Shown here piece after piece: positions 6,555 to 36,474 of a stretch of 36,806 bases of DNA. The position numbers and the translations under genes are program-made. Position 1 is the stretch's first letter; each line of letters starts with the position of its first letter. The notes under the pieces are model-generated. The model made no database searches, was not told the DNA's origin, and saw nothing but the letters and a program-made list of their open reading frames with translations. The stretch covers positions 1 through 36,806 of the forward strand of contig WRJO01000007.1 of NCBI GenBank assembly GCA_009778545.1. Direction: 5' to 3'. The stretch comes from Treponema sp. (GTDB taxonomy: Bacteria > Spirochaetota > Spirochaetia > Treponematales > Breznakiellaceae).

Positions 6555-6555
6555 C

Positions 6556-7902
6556 TCACCGCCTCGATAGGTACAGTATATCACCAAAAAGGGCAAAAAG
6601 CATCAGCCCGCAGATAAGTACCACGCCGAGGGTTTGGAACACCCCGATGGCACGGGGGTGCAGGGGCTTGCGCCGGATTATTTCCACGGTGAACAAAATG
6701 ATCTGTCCGCCGTCCAGCACCGGCAGGGGCAGCAGGTTCATCACGCAGAGGGCGATGGAGATGAGTGCGATAAAATCGGCAAGGGAGCGAAGGCCCGTGC
6801 CGAAGCTCTGCCCGAAGCCCTCGGCGGCAACGTCGCCCACCATGTAGGTTATGCGGACCGGGCCGGAAACCGCCTCGGTTACATCGATCCCCTTAAAAAG
6901 CAAGGTAAGGCTTTTCAGCGAGACGAGCAGGGTATTCCAGCCTTCCGACACGCCTTTCGCAAGCGCTCCGGGGGGCGACAGGGACGGAGTCCGGTACTGC
7001 ACCCTCGGCCAGATTATCCCCAGGCTGCCATCCGCCGAGAGGACAAGTTCCGCCGTTTGCTCGGCGCCGTCCCTGATGTAGTCAATTTTTGCCACCGGAG
7101 GGCTGCTGTCTACCGCCTTCATAAAGTCGATGGTATGGGTGATTGTTTCGCCGTTTACCCGGATTATAAGGTCCCCCGGCAGAAGCCCTGCGATGGCGGC
7201 ATCGCTGCCGCTTACGATTTCGTCTACCAGCGGATCGGCCCAGAAATAGACGCCGATTCTTCCCGCGCCGGTGCTCTTGTCGAGGTCGGGCTTAACGAGG
7301 AGGCTGATGGTTTCGCCGCCCCTGTCCACGGTTACGGGCAGCAGCTTGTCGGGATTGGTCGCTATGTTTTGCTGTACTTCGTGATAATAATTTGTTTTCC
7401 TGCCGTTTACTTCGATTATCCTGTCGCCGGTCTTGAAACCCGCTGCGTCTGCGGGGAAGGTGGCATCGGCGCTGACATCCGACGCGAGCACGATGCGGCT
7501 GTCCAGCGTGTTTACCTCGAACCCGATGCCCCAGATCAGCGAGAGTATCAGCACGGCGAACAGCAGGTTGAACAGGGGCCCGGCAAAGCATACGACGATC
7601 CGCCGCAGGGGGCTTGTGCCGTAAAAAGTTCCCTTTACCGGTTCGATGCCGCTGGCGCGGTTTTCCCATGCCTCTTTGAATTCGTTATCGCCCCGCATCT
7701 TGCAGTAGCCGCCCAGGGGGAACATGCCCAGCCGGTATTCGACATCGCCGATTTTCTTTTTAAGAATGGGATTGCCCCAGCCGATGGAAAATGCTTCCAC
7801 ATCGATGCCCACCAGCCGCGCGGCAAGAAAATGCCCCAGTTCATGGATGAAAACGACAATGCCCAGGCCGAGCAGCCCAAGGGCTATTTTTACTGCAACC
7901 AT
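6556..7902 (-). CDS. rseP: Site-2 intramembrane zinc protease RseP
   Basis: 448 aa, the usual length of the RseP/YaeL family. The first membrane helix carries the zinc motif HELGH (residues 20-24), and the C-terminal catalytic motif is NLLPLPVLDGGQ, which gives the third zinc ligand. Two PDZ domains sit between: FKTGDRIIEVNGRKT and LLPGDLIIRVNGETI. Four membrane segments are visible. In known systems RseP cuts membrane-spanning anti-sigma factors and leftover signal peptides. Gene order dxr-rseP with a 9-bp gap is standard in spirochaetes. No Shine-Dalgarno is visible, so it probably depends on coupling to dxr. No anti-sigma substrate is encoded in the window. Confidence 0.95.
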   Translation of the reverse strand: MVAVKIALGLLGLGIVVFIHELGHFLAARLVGIDVEAFSIGWGNPILKKKIGDVEYRLGMFPLGGYCKMRGDNEFKEAWENRASGIEPVKGTFYGTSPLRRIVVCFAGPLFNLLFAVLILSLIWGIGFEVNTLDSRIVLASDVSADATFPADAAGFKTGDRIIEVNGRKTNYYHEVQQNIATNPDKLLPVTVDRGGETISLLVKPDLDKSTGAGRIGVYFWADPLVDEIVSGSDAAIAGLLPGDLIIRVNGETITHTIDFMKAVDSSPPVAKIDYIRDGAEQTAELVLSADGSLGIIWPRVQYRTPSLSPPGALAKGVSEGWNTLLVSLKSLTLLFKGIDVTEAVSGPVRITYMVGDVAAEGFGQSFGTGLRSLADFIALISIALCVMNLLPLPVLDGGQIILFTVEIIRRKPLHPRAIGVFQTLGVVLICGLMLFALFGDILYLSRR

Positions 7903-15572: not shown

Positions 15573-17864
15573 TTACTTCTTCACTTTCTTGGTCATTATC
15601 AGGACGTTCTTGTCGTCCATGCGATGGTAATTTACCGTATCCATGAGCTTTTTCACGAGGAAAATTCCCAGACCGCCTATTTCGCGCTGCATCAGCGGCT
15701 TGTCCAGATCCGGGTCCTGCGCTTCAAGGGGGTTATACGGTCTGCCGTTGTCTACAAACCGGATCAGTATTTCGTCTCCGGCCGCGATGCCGATGGTAAC
15801 TTCGCCCGTTTCCGGGGCATAGGCGTAATGTTCAACGTTTACGAATATTTCTTCGACCGCCTCGAATATCAGATCCTCCAGTTCGGGCGGGTAACCATAG
15901 CCGTCAAGCTCCTCTCCGATAAAGTCCAGGATTTTTCCGAAATTTTCCATCTTTGCCACTACCGTAAGCTCATTAATCACGGCCTCCCGGTCCAGCACGC
16001 CGTAGTGGCGGCTTTTTTCCAGGGCAAGCATGGTTATGTCATCCGACTGCTCGGTTTCTCCCGTAAATATGTCAATATCCCTTTTTATTGAGGAAAGCAT
16101 ATCCTTTGGGGGGAATTCCTTGCATCTGTTTATCGATGCCAAAAGCCGCTTTTCGGAAAAAAGCTCCCTGTCCGCGTTCATCGCTTCGGTTACGCCGTCG
16201 GTGTAAAAATAGATGGCATCCCCCGGTTCCAGCATTATTTCCACTTCGCGGTAGTCGGGGTTTTCGATAAATCCCAGGACGATGCAGGGTTTTGTGCTAA
16301 AATAATTAAAATCGCCATCGCCTCTTCGCAGCAGGGGCGGGGTATGCCCGGCATTGACATACACAAACCTTCCGCTCGGTATGTTAAAGATGCCCATTAT
16401 CGCCGTTACGAACATCCGCGAATCGTTGTTCTCGCAGAGTTTTTTGTTGACTATCTCAAAAACGCTTTTGGGGCTGTCGCTGAAAGTGCAGTCCCGTATT
16501 ATGGTTTTGGTAATGACCATGAACAAAGCGGCGGGAATTCCCTTGCCGGAAACATCGGCTATTACTACCGCCAGATTGTTTCTGTCGAGCATGTAGAAAT
16601 CGTAAAAATCTCCGCCTACTTCCCTGGCTGGAATCATCGTGGCGTATATGTCGAATTCCGATCGGGTGGGGAAGGCAGGAAAAATACAGGGAATCATGCT
16701 GCTCTGTATCTCTGCCGCAACACGCAGTTCTGTGGCTATACGCTTTTTTTCTTCGCGTTCCCGTTCATGGGCTTCGATGGCGTTTTTTAAATCTTCGGTC
16801 ATTTTGTTAAAGGTTCCGGCAAGCATGCCAAATTCGTCTTTGGTGGTCTCCTTTACATGCATGTCAAGGTTGCCAATGGCGAGGTGGGCGACATCGGTGG
16901 TGAGCCGCCGCAGCGGCGTGTTGATAAGTTTTGATACCAGAAAATACGCGGCGGCCATTAAAAAAACCAGAGAAAAAATAATCGTCATCGAGTAGCAGGT
17001 GTTGCGCTTTTCCACTTCGGCGAAAATTTCGTTCTCGGGAATCTGTACCGACAGCAGCCAGCCGTTGTCCAGCCGCCTGCCAAAGTTTAAATAGTTTACC
17101 CCCCCAAGGGTAAACGAACCGGCGTTTATGTCCCATGGAATGATTTTGGCGGGTGCGCCCGTCAGGTTGGGCAGGTATGTGGCAGAAATGATGTAGTCTT
17201 TTTCGGGAACGCAGAGCACGACAAAGCTGTTTTCGGTGGGGCGGATGGCGGTTAATGCCTTTACCGCCTTTTCCATCCCCCAGTCCACAACCGATATTCC
17301 AATCATGGCGCCTTCGGAATCGAAAATGCCCGCTCCGGCTGCGGTTTTGAGATTCTGCGTAATGTCGCCGATAAAAGGCTTTGCCCACGCAACCTGGTAC
17401 GGCTGCGTTATTTCGTCAACAATGTCGCGATACCAGTTTCTGTCGTAAAAATCGTAGTTTTCAATGTCGCCCAGGCGCAGTTCGCCGGTGTCCCTGTCAT
17501 AGAACGCGTAGATGCTGACCTTGCGCGTTTCGTTGTTAAAGGCATGAGGCTCAAACCACAGCCCCCCTCCGACGGCAGCCGGAAAGCTGCGGAGAAATTC
17601 CAGCACCGACGTTTCGCCGATACTGCGCGACTGCGACTGGTAAAACAACAGGCCGCTGGTCACCATGTTGATGGCGCTTCGTTCAATGCCCCCGATTTCC
17701 TTGTTGAATTTTTCCGTTTCCAGTTCAACCGTTTTTTCGATGTCTTCAAGGCGCAGGCGTTTGTAATTTTTCGTCGTTGCCATTGAATACAGTACAAAGG
17801 CTGTACCCATGAATATCAAAGAGACAAATGTTATTGCAAGAATTTTTGTCCGTATCGAATACAT
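15573..17864 (-). CDS. Membrane sensor with SpoIIE phosphatase and RsbW-like kinase domains
   Basis: 763 aa. Order: TM1 (~7-29), a large periplasmic Cache-type sensor (30-288; FYDRNWYRDIV, SVVDWGMEKAV), TM2 (~291-311), HAMP (312-364), a short coiled linker, a PP2C/SpoIIE phosphatase (~403-616), then a GHKL ATPase like the RsbW/SpoIIAB anti-sigma kinases (~632-759). Metal-binding acids are in VGGDFYDF (Asp419), IADVSGKG (Asp437), YTDGVTEA (Asp556) and QSDDIT. The kinase part has the N-box pair Glu672/Asn676, VDNGRPYNP and GGLGIFLVKKL. A single protein could therefore dephosphorylate and rephosphorylate its STAS partner, whose gene ends 2 bp upstream. The ligand is unknown. Both catalytic domains look intact. 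Confidence 0.92.
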   Translation of the reverse strand: MYSIRTKILAITFVSLIFMGTAFVLYSMATTKNYKRLRLEDIEKTVELETEKFNKEIGGIERSAINMVTSGLLFYQSQSRSIGETSVLEFLRSFPAAVGGGLWFEPHAFNNETRKVSIYAFYDRDTGELRLGDIENYDFYDRNWYRDIVDEITQPYQVAWAKPFIGDITQNLKTAAGAGIFDSEGAMIGISVVDWGMEKAVKALTAIRPTENSFVVLCVPEKDYIISATYLPNLTGAPAKIIPWDINAGSFTLGGVNYLNFGRRLDNGWLLSVQIPENEIFAEVEKRNTCYSMTIIFSLVFLMAAAYFLVSKLINTPLRRLTTDVAHLAIGNLDMHVKETTKDEFGMLAGTFNKMTEDLKNAIEAHEREREEKKRIATELRVAAEIQSSMIPCIFPAFPTRSEFDIYATMIPAREVGGDFYDFYMLDRNNLAVVIADVSGKGIPAALFMVITKTIIRDCTFSDSPKSVFEIVNKKLCENNDSRMFVTAIMGIFNIPSGRFVYVNAGHTPPLLRRGDGDFNYFSTKPCIVLGFIENPDYREVEIMLEPGDAIYFYTDGVTEAMNADRELFSEKRLLASINRCKEFPPKDMLSSIKRDIDIFTGETEQSDDITMLALEKSRHYGVLDREAVINELTVVAKMENFGKILDFIGEELDGYGYPPELEDLIFEAVEEIFVNVEHYAYAPETGEVTIGIAAGDEILIRFVDNGRPYNPLEAQDPDLDKPLMQREIGGLGIFLVKKLMDTVNYHRMDDKNVLIMTKKVKK

Positions 17865-17866
17865 GA

Positions 17867-18181
17867 TTACTTGATCAGCATCTCATCCAGCGCGGTCATG
17901 CCCAGGACATTTCTGACATTTTGCGATGGCATTTCAATGCCGAATCTGCCCCCTGTGTCATTGAGATCCTGATACGTTTTAAGGATTACACGTATCCCGG
18001 CGGAACTCAGAAATTTTACCCATAGCATGTTCAGGACGATATTTTTTTGCCCGTCATGTATAGCCTTGTGCAACCAGTTTTCCAGCTTGTCCGCAGTCCC
18101 TGAATTAACATGGCCCTTGATGGTTAATTTAATGCCTTCCATGGTTGTCTCTTCAGTAATTTCCAGGTCTTCATTTCGCAC
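17867..18181 (-). CDS. STAS-domain anti-sigma factor antagonist
   Basis: 104 aa, starting with GTG 18181 behind AAGGAG, 8 nt away. It is a single STAS domain of the SpoIIAA/RsbV type. The phosphorylation loop is FLSSAGIRVILKTY; Ser60 aligns with the phosphoserine of SpoIIAA. When unphosphorylated such proteins bind the anti-sigma kinase and free its target. It is first in the operon, directly before the SpoIIE/kinase fusion, which is its obvious phosphatase and kinase. No sigma factor gene is nearby, so the output may not be a sigma factor. Confidence 0.93.
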   Translation of the reverse strand: MRNEDLEITEETTMEGIKLTIKGHVNSGTADKLENWLHKAIHDGQKNIVLNMLWVKFLSSAGIRVILKTYQDLNDTGGRFGIEMPSQNVRNVLGMTALDEMLIK

Positions 18182-18223
18182 GAAATTGTCTCCTTATGAT
18201 GCATATTTACGGTGCATATATAA

Positions 18224-18526: not shown

Positions 18527-21500
18527 ATGAACCGTACCGGGTCGAATAACCGGAAGCAGAAAAACAGGCTCGCCGCACATACCAGAATTGTCAACATGGT
18601 GCTTCTTTTCCTCGTCCTTGTCCTGCTCACGGTGGTGTCGGGCGTGATAATCAACAGGATTAACAACGAGAACGCCAGGAATATCGTCCGGACCTATTCG
18701 ATGGAGGCTGCGGACAAGTTCTTTTCGTATATTAGCCAGGACCTTACCCTGGTGCGAAAGGCGGCGCACTCAAGGGCCATTACGGCGTGGTTTGCCAACG
18801 AGGGCGACCAGCAGAAAAAATTCGACGCGATGGACGAGCTGTCGGACTATGCCGCCATCATGAACGGCAATCATTTTTACCTCGGCATCCATGAATCAAT
18901 GAACGAATACTCCCTGATGCACGGCCATGGCCACGAGCATGAAACCGGGCCGATGTTTATGGACGTTGGCCCCCATGCGCGGCTCGATCAGCAAAACCCG
19001 GACGACATCTGGTATTTTGACTGCATAAATTCCGATAATGTGTATTCCCTGAATATCGACGTAGAAAAAGCCACCAACATGTGGCATTTGTGGATAAACC
19101 ACAAGGTTCTGCTGGACGGGAAATTCCTGGGGATATTCTGCTCGGGACTGGGCATCCCCGACGTGTTCTACGAAATATTCAGCGAAGAAAAGTACAACCA
19201 GAATATAGTGCGGGGATACATTATCGACAGGCGCGGCGTTATCCAGTCGTCCAGCATCGATCCCCGCATTTACCACGAAGAAGACAACCACATTCACGAA
19301 GAAAGTTCCGATCCCGCTTTTGCTGCGGCACTCGGTATGCACATAGCGGGCATTCAGGGGGTTTTTGGCCCCCATTCCCGCCCGCAGGTGCTCAGGACCA
19401 GCAAAAGGCCGTTTGAATACGTCGCCATCGAGCCTATCGGCAGCACGGACTGGTCGGTCGTCGTTTTTTACAACGGCCATTCGCTTGCCGGCGTCGCCAA
19501 CCTCGTGCCGCTGCTGGTTGTGATGCTGTCCGCCCTGTTCCTCTATGTGGTGGCGAGAAACGCCATCGTGGGCAGGATCATATTCACCCCGCTGGATAAC
19601 CTTATTCAGAGCGTGTCAGAAGGCAAATCAAATGATGCCGATTTTTTCGGCAAGGACCGCGACGACGAAATCGGCGACCTGGCCCGGGTCATACGGGACG
19701 CTTCGTATCAGGAGGAGCGCCAGGAGCAGCTTTTGCAGGCGGTTAACAGCGCCGCCGCCGTCCTGCTCGCCCCGGCAAACGAGGAGGATTTTGACACTTC
19801 GCTGATGGAGGGGCTGGACCTCATCGGCCGCTGCGTAGACGTCGACCGCCTCCATATCTGGCGGAACGAGATGATTGAAGGGGAATTAACCTACATCAAC
19901 CAGTTCAGCTGGGTCAGAAGCGATTGTTCCAGGTGGAGAAAGTCCGCCGCAATACAGCGCCGCTACAGCGAAGTTCCCGAACTGGAAAGAAGGTTCCTCC
20001 GGAATGAATATATAAACGGCCCGGTTTCCCAGATGCCGGCAGAAGAACAGGCAATATTCATAGATCAGGGCGTAAAGTCCTTTTTGGGAATACCGCTGTA
20101 TTTGCAGAAAAAGTTTTACGGCTATTTCAGCTTTGACGACTGCCACGAGGAACGGGTCTTTACCAACGACGAGGTTAACATCCTCCGTTCCGCCGGTCTG
20201 ATGCTTGTCAGCGCCGTTAACCGCAACACCCACGCGGCGCAGCTTAACGAGGCGCACCAGCAGACGCGGCTTTTGCTTGACGCGATGCCCTTTGCCTGCA
20301 ACCTGTGGGACAAGAACCTTAAGGTTTTCGGATGCAACGAAGAAAACGTCAGGCTGTTCGATCTTAAGGACAAGGATGAATTTATCAATTGTTTTGAAGA
20401 GCTGTCTCCGGAATACCAGCCCAGCGGAGTGCTTTCCACGGTAAAGACCGAATATGTAAAAAGGGCGTTTGCCGAAGGCAGGTGCGTCTTTAACTGGATG
20501 CACCAGAAGCGGGACGGCACCCCAATCCCCACGGAGATGACGCTTGTCCGCGTCGACTACGACGGGGACTATGCCGTTGCCGGGTATGTGCGGGACCTCC
20601 GCGAACAGAACCGGATGTTGAACGAAATCCAGCGGCGGGACAGCCTCCTCCATGTGATGAACCACACGGCGACCGCGCTGCTCTCGCCGGTGGACGAGTC
20701 GGATTTTGAGGCTTCGCTGCTTCAGGGCCTGGAGCTCATCGGCCGCTGCGTGGACGCGGACCGCATCAACATCTGGCGGAATGATACAATCGACGGGGTC
20801 TTTTGCTACGTCAACCAGTTTCAGTGGCTGAGAAGCGACGCCAGCCGCAGGGGGAGGCCCGCCATCGGCAGCCGCCCGTACAGGGATAACCCCGAATGGG
20901 AAAAGGCCTTTATTAAAAATGAATGTATCAACGGGCCTGTTTCTGCACGGACAAAATCCGAGCGGGACCTTTTGGGACCCCAGGGCGTCAAATCAATTTT
21001 GGCGATTCCGCTGCATTGGAACAGGCAGTTCTACGGTTTTTTCAGCCTGGACGACTGCCATCAGGAGCGTACCTTCAGCGAAGACGAGGTGAACATCCTC
21101 CGCTCCGCCGGCCTTATGATGGTCAATGCGTTTAACCGCAACACCCAGGCAACCCAGCTTCGCGAAGCCCATGAGCATACGACCCTTCTGTTGGACACGA
21201 TGCCGATGACCTGCAACCTGTTTCACCGGGATGCGCAGATATTTGACTGCAACGAAGCTGCGGTCAAGCTCTTTGAAACTAAAGACAAGCAGGGCTATCT
21301 GGAGCATTTTTGGGATTTTTCTCCATTTTACCAGATGGACGGACAGCTCAGTTCCGAAAAAGCCGCCATGTTAATTAACAAGGCTTTTAACGAGGGCAGG
21401 GCTGTTTCCGAATGGACGCACAAGCTGCCCGACGGCACGTTGATGCCGGTGGAAGTAACGCTTGTCCGCGTCAAATTCGGGGACGACGATATCGTCGCCG

Positions 21501-24349
21501 GCTATTCATGGGACTTGCGCGAACATAAACGGATGGTGCACGAGATCGAGCAGGGCGCGAGCCTTCTTAACACGGTGAACCACGCCGCCACGATTCTTTT
21601 GCAGTCGGAGATCGATGAATTCAACAGCAACCTGCACCGCTGCATGGGCATGATGGCCGAATCCGTCGTTGCCGACCGGGTATGCATCTGGAAGAACCAC
21701 ATTAAATCGGGCAAGCTGTACTGCACCCAGATTCACGAATGGCTGGGCGATGCCGAAAGCCAGATAGACCTTGATTTAACGATTGACGTATCCTATGGCG
21801 ATACGCTCCCCGGCTGGGAAAGGACCCTGTCGCGGGGGGACTGCATCAACAGCCTGGTGCGCGACATGTCGCCGGAGGAGCAGGCCCAGCTTGCGCCGCA
21901 GGGGATAAAGGCCCTCTTTGTCGCGCCGGTGTTCGTGCATGATAAATTCTGGGGCTATGTCGGCTTTGACAATTGCCACAGCGAAAAAATCCTTTCCGAA
22001 AGCGAAGAATTTACCCTCCGCTCCGGCAGCATGCTCATAGCCACCGCCCTCTTGCGCAACGAAATGACGCTGAGCATCCGCGACACCGCCGCCAAGCTGG
22101 AAGCGGTTATCGCCGGTTACGCGGGCATTATCTGGTGCGTGGATACCGAAAACAAAATTACCCTGTTCAACGGCATGTACCTCAACGAGCTTGGGTTCCC
22201 GCCCGACTACTATGAAGGCATGAAGATCGAAGCCGCCCTGCTGGACAGGCGGTTTTTCGGCATCCACGAAACCGTGCCCAAGACTTTTGCCGAAGGGCCG
22301 CAGGACCTGAGCACCGAGATCGAAGGAAAGGTGTACCGGACCCGTACCACGCCCATCTACAACGACAAGGGCCGTGTGGTTAACGTGGTGGGGACTTTCG
22401 ACGACGTTACGGAAAGAAACAAGATGCAGATGGAGCTTAAGGCGGCGCTGAAGGAGGCGCAGGAAGCGAACAACGCCAAGACGAGCTTCCTTGCCAGGAT
22501 GAGCCACGAAATGCGAACGCCGCTGAACGCGGTAATCGGCCTTTCCACGCTGATGATGGAGGATAAGTCCCTCGTCGAAGAAGTGCTTTCAAATCTTGAA
22601 AAGATCAACAGCGCCGGATCGACCCTCCTTTCCACGGTGAACGACATTCTGGACATCTCCAAAATAGAAGCGGGCAAATTCGAAATTATCCCCGTGCAGT
22701 ACGACATCCCCAGCCTTATCAACGACGCCATTACCCAGAGCATCATGCGGATCGGCGACAAGCCGATCCAGTTCCGCCTGGACATAAACGGGAACCTGCC
22801 CTCGCGGCTGTACGGCGACGATCTGCGGGTAAAGCAGGTTCTGAACAACCTGCTGTCCAACGCGTTCAAGTACACCTGGGACGGCTCGGTGGAACTGGGG
22901 GTGAACTGCGAACGCGACGGCGACACGGTGTGGATGACCATTACCGTCAAAGACACCGGCATGGGTATTCGCAAGGAGGATATGGACAGCCTCTTTGCCG
23001 ACTATGTGCAGATGGATACATCGGCCAACCGGAAAATAGAGGGGACCGGCCTGGGGCTTTCCATCACCAAAAAGATCGCCGTCATGATGGATGGCACGGT
23101 AGACGTGCAAAGCGAATATGGCAAAGGGAGCGTGTTTACGGTAAAGCTCCGGCAGGGGTATGTAAACGATTCCGTAATCGGGGATGAAGTGGTAAACAGC
23201 CTCAAGGGCTTCCATTACTCCGATCAGAAGCGCCGCCGGAGCTTCCGCACGGCAAGGGTCAATCTGTCCTATGCGCGGGTGCTGCTGGTTGACGACGTGA
23301 CGACGAACCTCGATGTCGCCAAGGGCATGATGAAGCCCTACGGCATGCAGATCGACTGCGTTACCAGCGGCCAGGACGCCATCAACATGATCCGCGCCGA
23401 ATCGGTCAGGTACAACGCGATCTTCATGGATCACATGATGCCCGATATGGACGGGATCGAAGCCACCAGGATTATCCGCGAGGAAATCGGGACGGAATAT
23501 GCCAAAAATATTCCCATTATCGCCCTTACCGCCAACGCGATCCTCGGCAACGAGGCGCTGTTCCTCGACAAGGGCTTCCAGGCGTTTTTAACCAAGCCCA
23601 TCGAAATCGAACGCCTGGACATGGTGATTCGGGAATGGGTGCGGGACAAGGAGCTGGAAAAGAGTCTCGCGGGCCAGAAGATCAACATAGACGGGCAGGA
23701 GTATTTGGATGTCCGCAGCGGGGACGAGCGGCGCACCGATTCCGACAGGAGGAGCGGCGGCGACCGGCGTACTTTTGGGAAGAGAATCCACGGGCTGGAC
23801 ATCGGCAGGGGAATAGAGCGCTTCAGCGGCGATGAGGAATCGTTCCTCCAGGTGCTGCAATCCTACGCGAACAACACGCCGCCGCTTCTGGAGAAGATCG
23901 TCTCGGTGAACAAGGACAATTTGTCCGAATATGCCGTTACCGTTCACGGAATAAAGGGGGCAAGCAACGGCATCTGCGCGGAGGCGGTGGGCGCCAAGGC
24001 CGAAGCCCTGGAAAAAGCGGCAAAAGACGGGGATATCAGCTATGTGATGGCATATAACGTCGATTTTATGGATTCCGCCAAAAAGCTCATAAAAGACATA
24101 ACCGGTATGCTGGAGGATATTGCCCGCGAGAATCCCAAGCCTAAAAAGGAGAAGCCGGACAGCGAGGCGCTGGGCAGGCTGCTGGCCGCCTGCGATGCCT
24201 ATAACATGGACGGGGTGGACGCGGCCATGGAAGAAATTGAATGCTATGAATATGAATCCGACGGCGGCCTTTCCGTCTGGCTGCGCGAAAATGTCAACCA
24301 GATGAACTTCGCCCAGATTACAGAACGGCTTTCGGCCCTGGCAGGGTAG
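18527..24349 (+). CDS. Giant hybrid histidine kinase (Cache-HAMP-3x(GAF-PAS)-HK-REC-Hpt)
   Basis: 1940 aa; GAGGGG lies 7 nt before the ATG. Order: TM1 (24-43), a periplasmic sensor (~44-322) with two histidine clusters (HGHGHEH 132-138 and HEEDNHIH 250-257), TM2 (~323-343), HAMP (347-400), three GAF-PAS units of about 300 residues each (405-706, 707-1009, 1010-1305), HisKA with phospho-acceptor His1327 in RMSHEMRTPLNAV, ATPase with N-box NNLLSNAFK (from 1440), VKDTGMGI and GTGLGLSI, REC with DD at 1589-1590 and phospho-acceptor Asp1635 in FMDHMMPDMDG, a charged Arg/Asp linker, Hpt with His1807 in VHGIKGAS, and a C-terminal domain of about 65 residues. All phosphorelay residues are present. 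It is first in an operon with a paralogous kinase and an HD-GYP regulator. The signal is unknown. Confidence 0.95.
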   Translation: MNRTGSNNRKQKNRLAAHTRIVNMVLLFLVLVLLTVVSGVIINRINNENARNIVRTYSMEAADKFFSYISQDLTLVRKAAHSRAITAWFANEGDQQKKFDAMDELSDYAAIMNGNHFYLGIHESMNEYSLMHGHGHEHETGPMFMDVGPHARLDQQNPDDIWYFDCINSDNVYSLNIDVEKATNMWHLWINHKVLLDGKFLGIFCSGLGIPDVFYEIFSEEKYNQNIVRGYIIDRRGVIQSSSIDPRIYHEEDNHIHEESSDPAFAAALGMHIAGIQGVFGPHSRPQVLRTSKRPFEYVAIEPIGSTDWSVVVFYNGHSLAGVANLVPLLVVMLSALFLYVVARNAIVGRIIFTPLDNLIQSVSEGKSNDADFFGKDRDDEIGDLARVIRDASYQEERQEQLLQAVNSAAAVLLAPANEEDFDTSLMEGLDLIGRCVDVDRLHIWRNEMIEGELTYINQFSWVRSDCSRWRKSAAIQRRYSEVPELERRFLRNEYINGPVSQMPAEEQAIFIDQGVKSFLGIPLYLQKKFYGYFSFDDCHEERVFTNDEVNILRSAGLMLVSAVNRNTHAAQLNEAHQQTRLLLDAMPFACNLWDKNLKVFGCNEENVRLFDLKDKDEFINCFEELSPEYQPSGVLSTVKTEYVKRAFAEGRCVFNWMHQKRDGTPIPTEMTLVRVDYDGDYAVAGYVRDLREQNRMLNEIQRRDSLLHVMNHTATALLSPVDESDFEASLLQGLELIGRCVDADRINIWRNDTIDGVFCYVNQFQWLRSDASRRGRPAIGSRPYRDNPEWEKAFIKNECINGPVSARTKSERDLLGPQGVKSILAIPLHWNRQFYGFFSLDDCHQERTFSEDEVNILRSAGLMMVNAFNRNTQATQLREAHEHTTLLLDTMPMTCNLFHRDAQIFDCNEAAVKLFETKDKQGYLEHFWDFSPFYQMDGQLSSEKAAMLINKAFNEGRAVSEWTHKLPDGTLMPVEVTLVRVKFGDDDIVAGYSWDLREHKRMVHEIEQGASLLNTVNHAATILLQSEIDEFNSNLHRCMGMMAESVVADRVCIWKNHIKSGKLYCTQIHEWLGDAESQIDLDLTIDVSYGDTLPGWERTLSRGDCINSLVRDMSPEEQAQLAPQGIKALFVAPVFVHDKFWGYVGFDNCHSEKILSESEEFTLRSGSMLIATALLRNEMTLSIRDTAAKLEAVIAGYAGIIWCVDTENKITLFNGMYLNELGFPPDYYEGMKIEAALLDRRFFGIHETVPKTFAEGPQDLSTEIEGKVYRTRTTPIYNDKGRVVNVVGTFDDVTERNKMQMELKAALKEAQEANNAKTSFLARMSHEMRTPLNAVIGLSTLMMEDKSLVEEVLSNLEKINSAGSTLLSTVNDILDISKIEAGKFEIIPVQYDIPSLINDAITQSIMRIGDKPIQFRLDINGNLPSRLYGDDLRVKQVLNNLLSNAFKYTWDGSVELGVNCERDGDTVWMTITVKDTGMGIRKEDMDSLFADYVQMDTSANRKIEGTGLGLSITKKIAVMMDGTVDVQSEYGKGSVFTVKLRQGYVNDSVIGDEVVNSLKGFHYSDQKRRRSFRTARVNLSYARVLLVDDVTTNLDVAKGMMKPYGMQIDCVTSGQDAINMIRAESVRYNAIFMDHMMPDMDGIEATRIIREEIGTEYAKNIPIIALTANAILGNEALFLDKGFQAFLTKPIEIERLDMVIREWVRDKELEKSLAGQKINIDGQEYLDVRSGDERRTDSDRRSGGDRRTFGKRIHGLDIGRGIERFSGDEESFLQVLQSYANNTPPLLEKIVSVNKDNLSEYAVTVHGIKGASNGICAEAVGAKAEALEKAAKDGDISYVMAYNVDFMDSAKKLIKDITGMLEDIARENPKPKKEKPDSEALGRLLAACDAYNMDGVDAAMEEIECYEYESDGGLSVWLRENVNQMNFAQITERLSALAG

Positions 24350-24362
24350 GGCGGTACCTCGA

Positions 24363-27194
24363 ATGTCGATGCGTGCAAGAGCCGGTCTGATAATAATGTC
24401 GATCGTTTTTATTATAACGGCGGCATACTTTTTTCTGAGCCTGTCCTTTACCAGGCAAAACATTGTTAAAACCATTGAACAGGATTTGACGCTGGCCATT
24501 GACATTGCAAATGATCTGGTTGCCACAAAGATCAAATTATTAAAATCAGAAGCCGATACGGTTGCCGAACGCCTTCTTCAGACAGATTCCATAGAGGGCA
24601 TGGCGGAACTCATGGAGTCTCAGTTGGCAGAATTCCCGGATTTTATTTCGCTGACCGTTTATGACTCGCACTCCATTGTCGCCAATTCGGGCGAGCCGGT
24701 TTCCCATGATGTTTTGCGGACCGAGAACAGCTACATACAGGTTGCGTTTAACGGGGAGCGCATCATTTCGTCGGCGCATTTCAACAATTTGTCCGGCTCG
24801 CTTGTCATGCATGTGTTCGTACCCATGGGAAACAGCCTGGTATTGTCGGCAACCTTTCCGGGCATGCTTTTTGCCGACCTCGTTACCGACTACCGGCTGT
24901 GGCGTACCGGCAACATTTTTATGCTCGACGGGACGGGGACCACCATCGCCGACGTCCAGCGCGAACTGGTAATAGACCAGCGCAATTTTATTTTGGAACC
25001 CGATACCGGCCCGGATTTTTCCGGCCTGCGGGATTTTCTCCAAATCATGATAACAACCGAAGACGGCATGGGGACGTACTTTTTCAACGGCGTAGAACGC
25101 CTTTGCATTTACAAGCACGTTACAGGCTCGCTGGCCGGCTGGCGCATCGCAATAGCGGCCCCCCTGAGCGAAAGCCCGCTTTTAACCCTGCGCAACGACC
25201 TTTTATATTCGGCCCTGTGTTTTTTGCTTGCCGGAATCGTAATATCAATCCTGCTCTCTGGAATAGTTTCGCGTCCTTTTTATCAGATTGAAGAACAAAA
25301 CCGCCATCTGGAGGAACTAAACGAGCAGGTAATGTCCGCTTCCGAAGCGAAGTCCACCTTTCTTGCCAGGATGAGCCACGAAATGCGCACCCCGCTTAAC
25401 GCCATAATCGGCCTGTCCGACCTGTCCCTGGAAGGGGAAACGCTCAGCGAAGACGACTACATAAACCTTGAAAGGATATACAGCGCCGGAGAGACGCTGC
25501 TCAGCCTGGTTAACGACATCCTTGACATTTCCAAAATAGAGGCGGGAAAATTCGAGCTCATTCCTATTGAGTACGACATCCCCAGCCTGCTGAACGACAC
25601 CATTACCCAGAACATCATCCGGAAAGGGGAAAAGCCCATCCGGTTCATCCTCGATATCGACAAGAACCTGCCGGCGCGCCTGTACGGCGACGATCTGCGC
25701 GTCAGGCAGATTTTCAACAACCTGCTGTCCAACGCCTTCAAATATACCAGGGAAGGGACGGTGGAAATGAGCATTGGCTGCGTAAAAACAGGCGACGCAG
25801 TCTGGCTGACTGCGGCCGTAAAGGATACCGGCATCGGCATTAAAAGCGGGAACATTGGCCGCCTGTTTGAAAATTTTGTCCAGCTTGACACAACCTCGCA
25901 CCGCACGATTGAGGGAACCGGCCTTGGCCTGTCCATCACCAAAAAAATGGTTGAGATGATGGACGGCTCGATCAGCGTGGAAAGCGAATTCGGCAAGGGC
26001 AGCACTTTCCGGGTTCGGCTGAAGCAGGGATTCGTATCCAATGCGGTAATCGGCGAAGAAGTGGCGGAAAGCCTGAAGAACTTCAACTATTCCGATCAGC
26101 GGCGCAGAAAATACTCGCGGATGTCGCGGGTTAGGATGCCCTACGCAAAGGTGCTGGTGGTAGACGACGTAACGACAAACCTGGACGTGGCAAGGGGCAT
26201 GATGAAGCCCTACGGTATGCAGGTGGACTGCGTTACCAGCGGCCAGGAGGCCATCACCCTGATTAGAGCCCAGGATGTGCAATACAGCGCGATATTCATG
26301 GACCACATGATGCCCGAAATGGACGGGATAGAAGCGACTCGGATTATCCGGGAAGAAATTGGAACCGAATACGCCAAAACCATTCCCGTAATCGCCCTTA
26401 CCGCCAACGCCATTGTGGGAAACGAGCAGATGTTTTTGGAGAAGGGCTTCCAGGCGTTTTTATCCAAGCCCATCAATGTCAAGCGGCTGGATGCGGCGCT
26501 GAACGAATGGGTGCGGGACAAGGAAAAGGAAAAGCTCCTCGACGAATGGCAGATTCATCCCGCTTCGGAGCGGCGCGCAAGGGTCGATCGCAGAAGCAAA
26601 ATCGACAGGCGGATATTTGACGACATCTCGCAGCTTATCGACATGGAAAAAGGGATTGAACGGTTCGGCGACGAGGAATCTTTCTACAGCATCCTGCGTT
26701 CCTTTGCGGTAAATACCCGCCCGCTGCTTGAGGTTATTAAGCGGGCAAGCAGGGAAAGTATGCACGAATATGCGATAACCGTGCACGGGATAAAGAGTTC
26801 CAGCCGGGGAATTTGCGTGGAAGCGGTGGGTTCTCTGGCAGAAGCTCTTGAAAAAGCGGCGAAAGAAGGGAACTATGACTATATCGAAGCGAATAACGCC
26901 GTTTTTGTCGAAGCGGTGGAAAGACTCATCGATATATTAAATGATATGCTGGCAGAAGTGGCCTCGGCTGCCTCCAGGCCCACAAAAGACATGCCCGACG
27001 GGGAGCTGCTCAAGAAACTTGCCGTCGCCTGCGAGGCATTTAAAATGGATGATGTGGACGCGGCCATGGAGGAGATAGAGCGTTTTGAATACGAAGCGGG
27101 CAAAGGGCTTGTCGCCTGGCTGCGGGAGAACGTGGAACTGATGAATTTTTCTGAAATAGTTGCTAGACTTTCAAATGAGAGTACCGGAGGATGA
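24363..27194 (+). CDS. Hybrid histidine kinase (Cache-HK-REC-Hpt), paralogue of the preceding gene
   Basis: 943 aa, 13 bp after the previous stop. TM1 (8-28), a periplasmic Cache-like sensor (~30-278; MLDGTGTTIADV, GTYFFNGVERLCIY), TM2 (281-302), then a short coiled coil directly to HisKA, with no HAMP, GAF or PAS. His339 is in RMSHEMRTPLNAI, followed by ATPase boxes NNLLSNAFK, VKDTGIGI and GTGLGLSI. REC has DD 601-602 and Asp647 in FMDHMMPEMDG; Hpt has His808 in VHGIKSSS; a C-terminal domain ends the protein (~878-943). From the H-box on it is closely similar to the first kinase, so the two arose by duplication followed by replacement of the sensor half. The start could also be ATG 24369. 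Likely shares the downstream HD-GYP output. Confidence 0.94.
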   Translation: MSMRARAGLIIMSIVFIITAAYFFLSLSFTRQNIVKTIEQDLTLAIDIANDLVATKIKLLKSEADTVAERLLQTDSIEGMAELMESQLAEFPDFISLTVYDSHSIVANSGEPVSHDVLRTENSYIQVAFNGERIISSAHFNNLSGSLVMHVFVPMGNSLVLSATFPGMLFADLVTDYRLWRTGNIFMLDGTGTTIADVQRELVIDQRNFILEPDTGPDFSGLRDFLQIMITTEDGMGTYFFNGVERLCIYKHVTGSLAGWRIAIAAPLSESPLLTLRNDLLYSALCFLLAGIVISILLSGIVSRPFYQIEEQNRHLEELNEQVMSASEAKSTFLARMSHEMRTPLNAIIGLSDLSLEGETLSEDDYINLERIYSAGETLLSLVNDILDISKIEAGKFELIPIEYDIPSLLNDTITQNIIRKGEKPIRFILDIDKNLPARLYGDDLRVRQIFNNLLSNAFKYTREGTVEMSIGCVKTGDAVWLTAAVKDTGIGIKSGNIGRLFENFVQLDTTSHRTIEGTGLGLSITKKMVEMMDGSISVESEFGKGSTFRVRLKQGFVSNAVIGEEVAESLKNFNYSDQRRRKYSRMSRVRMPYAKVLVVDDVTTNLDVARGMMKPYGMQVDCVTSGQEAITLIRAQDVQYSAIFMDHMMPEMDGIEATRIIREEIGTEYAKTIPVIALTANAIVGNEQMFLEKGFQAFLSKPINVKRLDAALNEWVRDKEKEKLLDEWQIHPASERRARVDRRSKIDRRIFDDISQLIDMEKGIERFGDEESFYSILRSFAVNTRPLLEVIKRASRESMHEYAITVHGIKSSSRGICVEAVGSLAEALEKAAKEGNYDYIEANNAVFVEAVERLIDILNDMLAEVASAASRPTKDMPDGELLKKLAVACEAFKMDDVDAAMEEIERFEYEAGKGLVAWLRENVELMNFSEIVARLSNESTGG

Positions 27195-27197
27195 TGT

Positions 27198-28310
27198 ATG
27201 GAAGAAACGCGGCACAAGATCATAATGGTTGACGACAACATGGCAAACCTCACCATGGGCAGGAACATGCTCAAAACTTTCTATGAGGTGTACCCTGCGC
27301 CGTCGTCGGCAAAATTTTTCGAGATTCTTGAAAATGTCACCCCCGATCTGGTCCTTCTGGACATAGAAATGCCGGAAATGAACGGATACGAGGCCATCAA
27401 AAAACTTAAAGCCGATGAGCGCTTTGCGAATATTCCCGTTATCTTTCTCACCGCCAAAAGCGATGAAAACAGCGAGCTTGAAGGGTTCGACCTTGGCGCG
27501 GTGGACTATATCTCCAAGCCCTTTTCCGGCCCCCTGCTGCTCAAGCGAATTGCCAACCAGCTTTTAATAACGGAACAGAAAAAGGAACTCCTGGCAAACC
27601 AGGCCGTCCTGCAGGATTACGCGGATAATCTGGAAGAAAGGGTGCACTCCAAGACAAAGGAAGTAATCAATTTGCAGAACGCCGTGCTGAGCACCGTCGC
27701 CGATCTGGTGGAATACCGCGACCAGCTTACCGGGGGCCACGTTACCCGCACCCAGATGTACCTTAAGGCCCTGACGGACGAGCTTATCAGGGAGGGGCTA
27801 TACCAGGACGAGATGGCAGGATGGGACATTGATTTTTTCCTGTCCTCGGCGCAATTGCATGACGTTGGCAAAATTGCCATCAGCGACATGATACTGAACA
27901 AACCGGCGAAGCTTACCATGGAAGAATTTGAGATAATGAAATCCCACGTAACCGTGGGTGTGGACGCCATCGAACGGATTATGAGAAATACCGAAGAGCA
28001 CGCCTTTTTGAATCACGCCCTTTTAATAACGGGGACCCACCACGAAAAATGGGACGGCACGGGATACCCCATGGGGCTCAAGGGCAAAAACATCCCCCTG
28101 GAAGGCCGACTGATGGCGATCGCCGATGTGTACGACGCGCTGATTGCGGTACGTCCGTACAAGGAGCCGTTCAGCTGCGAACAGGCCCGCAAAATAATTT
28201 TGGAGAGTTCGGGAACCCATTTTGATCCCATTCTGGTGGAAGTGTTCAAGAATGTCGTCAGCGAGTTTGAAAGGGTTTCGCGGGAAATCGGCGGCAGCGT
28301 CAATGGTTGA
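27198..28310 (+). CDS. Response regulator with HD-GYP cyclic-di-GMP phosphodiesterase domain
   Basis: 370 aa; GGAGG precedes the ATG by 7 nt, and the gap to the kinase stop is 3 bp. REC domain (~7-123): acidic pair DD 12-13, phospho-acceptor Asp55 in LLDIEMPEMNG, and the Lys in ISKPFSG. A coiled linker follows (124-160), then HD-GYP (~162-360) with HDVGK (221-225), THHEKWDGTGYP (GTGYP 287-291) and DVYDAL. HD-GYP enzymes degrade cyclic-di-GMP to pGpG or GMP. Inference: the Hpt domains of both upstream kinases pass phosphate to Asp55, so two membrane sensors would control one c-di-GMP phosphodiesterase, likely affecting motility or attachment. No c-di-GMP synthase (GGDEF) is in the window. Confidence 0.94.
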   Translation: MEETRHKIIMVDDNMANLTMGRNMLKTFYEVYPAPSSAKFFEILENVTPDLVLLDIEMPEMNGYEAIKKLKADERFANIPVIFLTAKSDENSELEGFDLGAVDYISKPFSGPLLLKRIANQLLITEQKKELLANQAVLQDYADNLEERVHSKTKEVINLQNAVLSTVADLVEYRDQLTGGHVTRTQMYLKALTDELIREGLYQDEMAGWDIDFFLSSAQLHDVGKIAISDMILNKPAKLTMEEFEIMKSHVTVGVDAIERIMRNTEEHAFLNHALLITGTHHEKWDGTGYPMGLKGKNIPLEGRLMAIADVYDALIAVRPYKEPFSCEQARKIILESSGTHFDPILVEVFKNVVSEFERVSREIGGSVNG

Positions 28311-28344: not shown

Positions 28345-29421
28345 ATGAAAAAAATCATTCTCAAAGCCGAAGACCTTGACGGTTATTTGACCGCAGCCGA
28401 CAAGGACTGCCTTGCCCGGATGGACGACCTGTACAAAAAGCTGATGAAGTCGTATTCCCAGCTTGAATCCGGCCTGCAGGAGGAACGGCGGAGCGGCGAG
28501 GACAGCCTTATCTCGCTGTACAACGAGATGGGCGACATGATGCAGGACATCTGCCTTAAAACGCCGAATATCAACGTGTACACCTTCCTTATCCCCCAGG
28601 AAAGCTATCCCGAAGCGTCGCGCCTTACCGCCAAACTGCGGGACGTGCGGACGGGGAATCAGGAGTTTATCTATTACATACAGCGGGCCTACGAAATGCT
28701 GTTCAAACTGGCCTGGGGTGGCAGCACCGGCAAGAACAAAAATTATCTGATCATAAAAACCCCGGTGACCAACCCGGTGCAGAATTACGCAGTGCACAAG
28801 ATCACCAACATCGACAGCCAGATCGAAAACACCGTCATGTGCGTAATGCTGCGCGGCGCGCTTCTGCCCTCGATGATCATGAGCAAGGAGATACAGGAAT
28901 ATTCTTCGCACGGCTATGTAACCCCTTTTGCCCTTTTCAGCATCAAGCGCGACGACACCAAAAAAGAAACCGACATGGAGTACATCCTGGACCTGGAACG
29001 CTCCTTTTTTGACCTTGGCGCGCTGGACGGCAAAGACCTGGTTTTCGCCGACCCGATGAATGCCACCGGCGGCAGCCTGGTAACGGTGGTAAAATACCTG
29101 CTGGATGCGGGCATTGAGCCGAAGTCGATACGTTTTTTTAACGCCATCGCCGCGCTTAAAGGAGCGCTGCGGGTCGTCCGCGCCCTGGACAACTGCGAGG
29201 TGTACACCCTCTGGATGGACCCCGTCCTTAACGAACATGCGTACATCATGCCCGGACTCGGCGACGCGGGGGATCGCATCAACGGCTGCGACCGGGAATT
29301 CCGCCCCCGGAATATCATCCAGCTTATAGCGGACTACGGCGACAACATCGCCCGGCTGTACCGTTCCCAGCTCAGGGAAATCGAAGACACGGTTTTGAAT
29401 AAAGTAGGAAGCAGGAGTTAG
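28345..29421 (+). CDS. Uracil phosphoribosyltransferase-like protein with N-terminal extension
   Basis: 358 aa against about 210 for ordinary Upp. The C-terminal ~200 residues carry the UPRTase features: [13 protein letters not shown], the PRPP loop DPMNATGGS (236-244), [17 protein letters not shown] with the uracil-binding GLGDAGDR (304-311). The first ~150 residues are additional: an acidic helical stretch ([17 protein letters not shown]) and a domain I do not recognise. The region between the PRPP-pocket strand and the loop ([17 protein letters not shown]) is also longer than usual. It may salvage uracil (uracil plus PRPP to UMP) or have another PRTase activity. The last codons (KVGSRS and stop) are encoded by a dispersed repeat. 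It has its own promoter and probably a leaderless message. Family assignment is firm, substrate less so. Confidence 0.82.
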
Positions 29422-35111: not shown

Positions 35112-35139
35112 TTGACAAACAGGAAATATGCGATATAGT
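35112..35139 (+). promoter_or_regulatory. Sigma-70-type promoter of the Hpt-REC gene
   Basis: A perfect -35 TTGACA (35112-35117), a 16-bp spacer and TATAGT (35134-35139). It overlaps an in-frame ATG at 35128, which therefore cannot be the start; the ATG at 35158 lies behind an AAGGG. Confidence 0.75.
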
Positions 35140-35157
35140 ATAATTAAGGGCTATTGT

Positions 35158-36474
35158 ATGGAATCAGAAAAGGAGGAAGCCGATCTTTCCGAAGAATTTT
35201 GGAAGGCGGTTGAGCAAATTGAAGGCCTCTCGCTGCAAACCGGACTGGGCAGGGTTTCCGGCGAACGGGAGGACTACAAAGAGCTGCTCCAACTGGTAAC
35301 AAAAGAGATTGACAAATGCGCCAAAAATACGAAAAACTTTTTATTTCTCAAGGATTATAAAAGCTTCCGCATAGAAGTACATGGGATAAAAGGCTCGCTC
35401 GCCAATATCGGCGCGGCGCAGCTTTCCTCAAAAGCGCTAGAGCTTGAAAATGCGTCTTTCAAGGAAGATGAAGCGTTTTGCTCGGCAAATTTGCCGCCAT
35501 TTCTGGATGCGCTTCAAAAATTCAAGTCTGACATTGCCGATGCCTTCGCGAAGGATAATGCAGGTCCAACCAAAGCGGGAGAACAGGACGAATTGCCGTC
35601 CGATGGCGGCGGAGACATGTATTTTGATCTGACCATCCTTCTGATAATGGGCGACGTGGACTTTCAGATTGTGATGAGGAGAAAACCGTCGATTAAGGTG
35701 AGCGATTATCTGTATTTGCTGGCGAAATTCGACAATATCGCCCTGAAGGGCGTGGACAGCCTGAACAGAATCGCCAACCGCGAAGCTGATGATAATGACG
35801 TAAAAGTATTATCGGATATTACGGATTTGCTTGGAAAACTTGGCTGCACAGGCATTATTTCGCTCATTGATAATACCATTTTGGCAGGCAAAAAAGGCCA
35901 CACCGCTTTTGCTTCCGACTGCGCAAAAAAAGCGCAGGGAGATTATGAAAGAAAGCAGGCGCGAATTCTCGCCTCAAAAAAAGAAGGAAAACCGGATTAT
36001 GGAGGGCGCGGCTCATCCCGGGAAGATTTTGAGGCGCTGCCCCTGAAAGACGCTTTGGAACAGTTGGAATTGACGGAATCTGCCCGCAAGCTGCGGGTTC
36101 TTGCCGTTGACGATTCCCCGGTAATGCTCAGCACCATCAATTCGGTGCTTGGCAGCGAATACAAAATATACTCAATGCCCAAGCCGTCACTGGTCGAAAG
36201 TTTTTTACGGCAAATAACGCCCGATTTAATTTTGCTGGATTATGAAATGCCCGAAATCAACGGATTTGAGCTTGTACCCATTATCCGCAGCTTCGAGGAA
36301 CTGAAAGAAACCCCGATCATTTTTATTACATCCATGGGAACCATTGATCATATTTCGGCGGCAACGGTACTCGGAGCGAGGGATTTTATCGTCAAACCGT
36401 TCCAGGCGGATAATCTGCGTAAAAAAGTAGCCAAACACATAGTACGAAAAAAAATTAAAACCGGCGGATTCTGA
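35158..36474 (+). CDS. Hpt - unknown domain - REC signalling protein
   Basis: 438 aa, cytoplasmic. Hpt domain at ~25-125 with phospho-acceptor His75 in EVHGIKGSLANIGA. Residues ~150-285 form a domain I do not recognise (YFDLTILLIMGDVDFQIVMR, SDITDLLGKLGCTGIISLID). REC at ~313-435 with DD in AVDDSPVML, phospho-acceptor Asp361 in LLDYEMPEING, Thr/Ser site FITSMG and Lys in IVKPFQ. There is no histidine kinase domain and no DNA-binding or enzyme output. It has its own promoter and stands alone between repeats. Inference: a phosphorelay intermediate that passes phosphate between a hybrid kinase and a regulator; it may connect to the kinases at 18.5-27.2 kb, but no sequence evidence shows this. 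Confidence 0.85.
   Translation: MESEKEEADLSEEFWKAVEQIEGLSLQTGLGRVSGEREDYKELLQLVTKEIDKCAKNTKNFLFLKDYKSFRIEVHGIKGSLANIGAAQLSSKALELENASFKEDEAFCSANLPPFLDALQKFKSDIADAFAKDNAGPTKAGEQDELPSDGGGDMYFDLTILLIMGDVDFQIVMRRKPSIKVSDYLYLLAKFDNIALKGVDSLNRIANREADDNDVKVLSDITDLLGKLGCTGIISLIDNTILAGKKGHTAFASDCAKKAQGDYERKQARILASKKEGKPDYGGRGSSREDFEALPLKDALEQLELTESARKLRVLAVDDSPVMLSTINSVLGSEYKIYSMPKPSLVESFLRQITPDLILLDYEMPEINGFELVPIIRSFEELKETPIIFITSMGTIDHISAATVLGARDFIVKPFQADNLRKKVAKHIVRKKIKTGGF

Follow-up and report, generated by a model that had tools for sequence, protein, structure and literature searches.

In Xanthomonas, the hybrid histidine kinase RpfC carries a receiver (REC) domain and a C-terminal histidine phosphotransfer (Hpt) domain and is encoded together with the REC-HD-GYP phosphodiesterase RpfG, which the phosphorelay has been proposed to activate by relieving REC inhibition; RpfC has five transmembrane (TM) segments and, where HAMP would otherwise be, a short juxtamembrane stretch, and it detects the diffusible signal factor (DSF) (excerpts of PMC3749722 and PMC5391125). 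The excerpted review of this system further considers that RpfG may be acted on by additional sensors, so that convergence on one HD-GYP protein is no foreign idea. Here we describe a locus that may work in a similar manner with two sensors. It lies in a 36,806-nucleotide stretch of a contig from a gut Treponema (WRJO01000007.1; the whole stretch is called the window), where three genes on the plus strand, identified at 18527-28310 from the listing of open reading frames (ORFs) and from Pfam, encode in this order two hybrid histidine kinases, K1 and K2, and a REC-HD-GYP response regulator. We envision a four-step phosphorelay resembling that of RpfC/RpfG with two entry points, whereby both kinases act on the HD-GYP protein, K2 and HD-GYP form an old termite-gut cassette, and K1 is an older relative with a swapped sensor; we would put the probability of this scenario at roughly 0.65. 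That two inputs converge on one HD-GYP protein had been suggested in an earlier note on this DNA. Convergence remains the most economical reading, and gene order and intact residues fit it, but a recent duplication of the kinases is not supported.

Architecture of the kinases and the regulator

The features that enter the argument are as follows.
18527..24349, plus strand: K1, hybrid histidine kinase of 1940 amino acids (aa) (ORF, Pfam, TM and motif scan)
19814..22426, plus strand: GAF-PAS array of K1, approximate limits (Pfam; tblastn of K1 against locus L071 skips the array, and the K1-type kinase of the closest relative does not have it)
22397..24334, plus strand: half of K1 common to K2, residues 1291-1936 (BLASTP, 60% over 646 aa)
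22505..22507, plus strand: HisKA phosphoacceptor His1327 of K1 (motif scan)
23429..23431, plus strand: REC phosphoacceptor Asp1635 of K1 (motif scan)
23945..23947, plus strand: Hpt His1807 of K1 (motif scan; column invariant in a 33-sequence alignment)
24137..24334, plus strand: C-terminal tail domain of K1, about 65 aa, helical (in-house hidden Markov model, HMM)
24363..27194, plus strand: K2, hybrid histidine kinase of 943 aa (ORF, Pfam, TM scan)
25278..27173, plus strand: half of K2 common to K1, residues 306-937 (BLASTP)
25377..25379, plus strand: HisKA His339 of K2 (motif scan)
26301..26303, plus strand: REC Asp647 of K2 (motif scan)
26784..26786, plus strand: Hpt His808 of K2 (motif scan; Hpt fold in model)
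26976..27173, plus strand: tail domain of K2 (in-house HMM; model of Hpt plus tail)
27198..28310, plus strand: REC-HD-GYP response regulator of 370 aa (Pfam Response_reg 85.6 bits, HD_5 98.2 bits)
27360..27362, plus strand: REC Asp55 of the HD-GYP protein (motif scan; invariant in a 12-sequence alignment)
27858..27863, plus strand: HD dyad His221-Asp222 (alignment and motif scan)
28038..28070, plus strand: HHExWDGxGYP motif (HHEKWDGTGYP), residues 281-291 (alignment and motif scan)

Each kinase has two hydrophobic TM regions, one on either side of a Cache-like sensor loop. K2 proceeds from TM, dCache-like sensor and TM directly to HisKA, HATPase, REC, linker, Hpt and tail; in K1 the second TM region is followed by a HAMP-like segment, three GAF-PAS pairs, HisKA, HATPase, REC, a charged linker, Hpt and tail. 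Pfam recognises HisKA, HATPase_c and Response_reg in both proteins, and in K1 also three GAF stretches and PAS domains at residues 580-693, 889-931 (below cut-off) and 1202-1297. The earlier description of the input halves, Cache-HAMP-3x(GAF-PAS) as opposed to Cache, is thus borne out for GAF and PAS; the dCache matches fall below the curated Pfam cut-offs in both kinases, and HAMP has no Pfam match in K1, where what we take to be a HAMP-like segment is assigned solely by a motif following the second TM helix. The HisKA histidine, the N and G boxes, the REC aspartate and the Hpt histidine were all found by motif scan in K1 and in K2, and the position of Asp55, named earlier as the phosphoacceptor of the HD-GYP protein, proved right. 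The regulator also bears both parts of the HD-GYP phosphodiesterase signature, the HD dyad and HHExxDGxGYP.

The Hpt domains score 16.0 and 20.6 bits in the two kinases against a cut-off of 24.6 (PF01627). In its modelled fold, this region is nonetheless Hpt-like: an AlphaFold model of Hpt plus tail, built from a 33-row alignment (mean predicted local distance difference test score 94.8), superimposes on the solved Hpt of a Shewanella hybrid kinase with a Z-score of 15.7 over 113 residues (root-mean-square deviation 2.2), a comparison that covered mainly model residues 1-115, i.e., the Hpt. The tail domain, a separate helical region, matched no Pfam or NCBIfam family; a search with the K2 tail finds it in 33 of 39 genomes of the genus. 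Between REC and Hpt lies an arginine-rich linker with repeated [DE]RR/DRR (around residues 1732-1757 in K1 and 735-753 in K2), which is likewise present at loci L085 and L166.

The genes are separated by 13 nucleotides (nt; K1-K2) and 3 nt (K2-HD-GYP), and 34 nt lie between the HD-GYP gene and the next one. Judging from this spacing, K1, K2 and HD-GYP would be co-transcribed. Terminator-like sites (16, versus 17.6 in shuffled sequences) and promoter-like sites (18 versus 9.3, scattered on both strands) are uninformative in this respect. The HD-GYP protein had been called the only classical response regulator nearby, which is accurate within the operon; the window also encodes, at 35128-36474, a protein of 448 aa with Hpt and REC at opposite ends and no domain assigned to the part between them.

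Comparison with known systems and within the genus

Like RpfC/RpfG, the locus combines a hybrid kinase containing REC and Hpt with an adjoining REC-HD-GYP gene. Unlike that system, it has two kinases, Cache-type inputs with two TM regions, a GAF-PAS array in K1 and a tail after the Hpt. A Pfam scan of 25 ORFs of the window yielded no crotonase-family match that could represent the DSF synthase gene rpfF. Because the inputs are not of the DSF type and no rpfF was seen in the window, we regard the locus as working like RpfC/RpfG and not as a member of that system. Tripartite kinases of the ArcB, BarA and TorS type have a transcription factor as output. They are the best NCBIfam matches, all far below cut-offs, and share the HisKA-HATPase-REC-Hpt order; K1 and K2 differ from them in their inputs, in the enzyme of cyclic di-GMP (c-di-GMP) type that forms the output, and in the tail.

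Within the genus, we surveyed stretches around the top REC-HD-GYP matches, which were picked by rank and not randomly, comprising 68 genes, some with too short an upstream stretch to judge. An Hpt-kinase stands directly upstream in 18 of the 68, a kinase occurs anywhere in the upstream gene string in 25, and two or more Hpt-kinases lie upstream in seven (the window, L084, L115, L119, L120, L123 and L136). A larger string recurs at L115, L119, L120, L123, L150 and L159: two tandem hybrid kinases, of which the second has one or two Hpt matches and the tail, then REC-REC, REC, often REC-GGDEF, and REC-HD-GYP. Opposing c-di-GMP enzymes may share one relay there. The window resembles this module, as seen at L115, L120 and L159, in its two tandem Hpt-kinases and terminal REC-HD-GYP; it differs in having HD-GYP only, whereas the module has extra single or double REC proteins and in some cases REC-GGDEF, and its HD-GYP falls into a different clade from those of L115, L120 and L159. 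Each part of the locus is of an ordinary, known kind; what is new is the apparent sensor swapping, which would place two sensor halves on one relay, and, more so, the probable habitat-wide cassette described below.

A proposed phosphorelay with two entry points

How might two kinases control one phosphodiesterase? In each membrane kinase, its own Cache-type domain would detect a ligand in the periplasm, with K1 additionally using its three GAF-PAS pairs as input. Phosphate would then pass from the HisKA histidine to the kinase's own REC aspartate and on to its own Hpt histidine. Both Hpt domains would hand the phosphate on to Asp55 in the REC-HD-GYP regulator, or would withdraw phosphate from it when working as phosphatases, and the state of Asp55 would set the activity of the cyclic-dinucleotide phosphodiesterase, most likely on c-di-GMP. 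Phosphotransfer, direction of control, substrate, co-transcription and passage between phyla are what we infer; domains, residues, gene order, spacing and relatives are what we find. As to origin, K2 and HD-GYP would constitute an old cassette common to termite-gut bacteria of several phyla, and K1 an older relative of K2 that had its sensor half swapped and was brought into, or kept in, the same operon.

Conceivably, a single kinase, K2 or K1, serves the HD-GYP protein, and the other phosphorylates a different regulator in trans. The relatives lend this some weight, since a K2-type kinase is the usual neighbour (31 loci, see below), whereas the closest relative, genome G007 of the same genus, keeps a K1-type kinase: its HD-GYP, 75% identical to that of the window, comes directly after a kinase that has no GAF-PAS array and a Cache 57% identical to that of K1. 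Among the K2-type Cache domains of G007, the best match (63%) is encoded at another locus, L164, where the 11 kb read include no adjacent HD-GYP gene. The Hpt domains of K1 and K2 are just 51% identical, a second REC protein is present in the window, and a third paralog of the family in the same genome, K3 (its two parts lie at the ends of two contigs and overlap by 41 identical residues), has a different REC protein as its partner. This protein (L096:4131-4736) directly follows K3 and bears part of the same tail domain. Yet K1 and K2 lie in one tight string with HD-GYP, and tandem Hpt-kinases ahead of REC-HD-GYP recur in the genus, as in the seven genes above. We therefore hold service by a single kinase to be unlikely and prefer the relay with two entry points.

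Several observations nevertheless weigh against such a relay. K3 is followed by a REC-only protein and not by HD-GYP, which implies that the Hpt domains of the family of K1, K2 and K3 need not all serve HD-GYP. The K1-type gene of G007 is split where its reading frame changes, within the part that encodes the Hpt. No kinase was flagged near the HD-GYP genes of two Treponema metagenome-assembled genomes (MAGs), within about 9 kb on each side at L171 and about 9 kb upstream at L172, so that the link to a kinase is not obligatory. Finally, a 13-row kinase tree leaves the branching of K1 and K2 unsettled: they are not sisters in the best tree, and their forced pairing is not rejected (approximately unbiased test, p-AU 0.171).

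Predicted substrate of the HD-GYP protein

The predicted substrate is most likely c-di-GMP. The closest solved relatives include the c-di-GMP phosphodiesterase 4r8z, which is the best sequence match, as well as 4mcw and 5z7c, a phosphodiesterase of 3'3'-cyclic GMP-AMP (3'3'-cGAMP). The genome of the window (68% complete) has nine HD_5, two GGDEF and four PilZ matches; the latter two counts indicate that a c-di-GMP network exists there, and all three families have matches in 39 of 39 genomes of the genus. That another cyclic dinucleotide such as 3'3'-cGAMP is the main substrate would be in keeping with the place of 5z7c among the closest solved relatives, with the scarcity of GGDEF next to HD_5 in this genome, and with jumbo-phage HD-GYP proteins being predicted counter-defence enzymes directed at nucleotide-based defence (excerpt of PMC7824862). 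Given the ranking of 4r8z and the presence of GGDEF and PilZ throughout the genus, we consider this quite improbable. Near a related cassette in a Desulfobulbaceae MAG, about 1 kb away, L195:2743-4212 encodes a DAC (DisA-like) protein with DACND/DACNH domains.

A cassette probably shared across phyla

A scan of genome contigs gave at least 583 confirmed relatives of the HD-GYP protein, of which the best 80, ranked on HD-GYP identity, were studied; these carry 10 phylum labels. A kinase lies within the set distance upstream in 41 of the 80 loci, and the other 39, some cut by contig ends, have no such neighbour. Of the 41 upstream kinases, 36 possess the tail and 31 both the tail and a K2-type Cache (27-40% identity over at least 250 aa); none has a full-length K1-type Cache. 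The 31 loci are spread over eight phyla: Spirochaetota (7), Bacillota (6), Synergistota (5), Myxococcota (5), Pseudomonadota (4), Planctomycetota (2), Thermodesulfobacteriota (1) and Actinomycetota (1). Members of the HD-GYP subfamily of the window are accompanied in some cases by just a K1-type kinase and in others by just a K2-type kinase. Among 35 of the 41 cassettes (six were dropped for missing or short domains), distances between kinases are correlated with distances between HD-GYP proteins (r 0.42-0.68), as expected if both genes travel and evolve together; in every comparison, 0 of 2000 permutations reached so high a value. No pattern emerged from transfer RNAs, which lie near the cassette at three of 45 loci scanned.

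MAG sample codes appear in 71 of the 80 record titles, and nine records are named otherwise. Six codes (14 loci) match termite samples in the excerpted Table 1 of PMC7024585, and Roe453 and Pcl387 are termite MAG codes according to excerpts of PMC11707648 and PMC12887300. A search of a partial literature collection returned no paper describing this cassette or its transfer in the termite gut. The remaining codes of the same style are presumably of termite-gut origin as well.

Was the cassette inherited or transferred? On an HD-GYP tree of 149 rows, 32 changes are required by the ten phylum labels, compared with a minimum of 9 and a shuffled mean of 53.2, so that labels cluster and yet are much intermixed. 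The HD-GYP of the window sits in a seven-row clade (Shimodaira-Hasegawa-like approximate likelihood ratio test, SH-aLRT, 99) of four Spirochaetota, two Bacillota and one Acidobacteriota. As a yardstick, ribosomal protein S2 of the window was searched in 15 of 16 chosen genomes (L188 was left out), and 12 matched. In the 11 genomes of other phyla, S2 is 43-62% and HD-GYP 56-70% identical, HD-GYP being higher in 11 of 11, by just 1-2 points in L180 and L192; two genomes of the same genus show the opposite order (S2 84%, HD-GYP 74%). The ranking of the loci by HD-GYP identity skews this yardstick in favour of transfer; to the contrary, three genomes of the same order and other families among the matches listed reach only 43-44%. 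Composition, tree and marker gene together favour transfer between phyla over vertical descent for these loci, which were ranked on HD-GYP identity.

Alternatively, and this is our chief concern, the spread across phyla might be an artefact of misassigned metagenome bins, with all contigs stemming from spirochetes. Nearly all matches are MAGs, whose bins can hold foreign contigs. Against this, contig GC content spans 35 to 70%, and the GC content at third codon positions in the cassette tracks that of the flanks (r=0.77, 37 loci). On the one contig tested (L183), the EF-G encoded in the flank reaches no more than 41% identity at full length (50% in fragments) to any of 39 genomes of the genus, compared with 63% for HD-GYP. 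Moreover, K2-type kinases differ from K2 by 60-73% in Cache, and so are not copies of one contig set. Wholesale misbinning thus strikes us as very doubtful, and the pair of kinase and HD-GYP gives the impression of a signalling module that is shared and mobile, not of the product of a fresh duplication.

Extending this, we offer tentatively, and with more doubt than conviction, a scenario whereby horizontal transfer distributed the two-gene cassette of Cache hybrid kinase and REC-HD-GYP over eight or more phyla of termite-gut bacteria, phages being one possible carrier of HD-GYP, such that unrelated gut members lower c-di-GMP in response to a shared host or diet signal, and the window gained a second sensor. 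If true, one community holds dozens of natural pairings in which the same Hpt and REC are combined with different sensor halves in distant genomes. These would be a ready-made set for asking how a phosphorelay keeps its specificity when sensors are swapped and genes transferred, and whether c-di-GMP is governed by a signal common to the whole gut.

Possible copies on mobile elements

A scan of viral collections returned four loci with HD-GYP relatives (L267-L270). L267, a Mu-like phage contig of 14.3 kb, carries an intact REC-HD-GYP gene at 6534-7616 whose product is 59% identical to that of the window and falls inside its clade (8 rows, SH-aLRT 98). The gene lies in the late structural operon between head-tail genes and a baseplate gene, and its ends overlap both neighbours; PHROGs names around it are portal, minor head, protease, major head, adaptor, baseplate, sheath and tape measure. 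Being a single contig, it is a lead, and a second viral scan found no copy besides it. A phage-borne HD-GYP of the same clade would raise the question of a virus that plugs into a host relay or clears a host cyclic dinucleotide.

The relative at L268 is 40% identical. L269 carries a fragment of HD-GYP some 7 kb away from an integrase-like gene; in L270 the fragment is at the contig edge next to a tRNA-like end, beyond which phage lysis and structural genes lie. We read both as host DNA flanking prophages and leave them out of the phage-borne copies. In phage records, the best full-length REC-HD-GYP matches (about 33%) are on unannotated human-gut contigs (hits H11-H16). The plasmid collection contains no close copy that would point to a plasmid vehicle, its best match being 43.8%.

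Relationship between K1 and K2

The C-terminal halves had been described as duplicated and nearly the same. They are indeed related, far past chance (BLASTP, 60% identity over 646 residues, E=0.0), and share the order HisKA-HATPase-REC-Hpt-tail; 60% identity is, however, well short of near-sameness. At the nucleotide level, 68.3% identity is seen over 625 aligned codons, and the 173 four-fold sites are 50.3% identical, as compared with 40.1% expected at saturation. A recent tandem duplication with swap of the input half, or gene conversion, is highly improbable, since, even though the genes adjoin, have a C-terminal half in common and can be paired in the tree without rejection, their synonymous sites are near saturation, the codon alignment contains no high-identity tract, and the K1 core is nearer to that of the G007 kinase (73%) than to that of K2 (64%). 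We read K1 and K2 as belonging, probably since long ago, to a single family, while differing in their sensor halves. The GAF-PAS array of K1 is most similar to that of another kinase of the same genome with a different type of second half, which points to domain shuffling.

Neighbouring genes

Downstream of the HD-GYP gene, a further gene is a possible member of the operon.
28345..29421, plus strand: UPRTase-like protein (Pfam UPRTase 86.8 bits; 34 nt downstream of the HD-GYP gene)

Upstream of K1, across 342 nt and in the opposite orientation, lie genes for a STAS protein and an adjoining SpoIIE-type phosphatase. The phosphatase (15573-18184, minus strand), divergent from K1, has a PDC sensor, HAMP and a fused anti-sigma-like ATPase domain.

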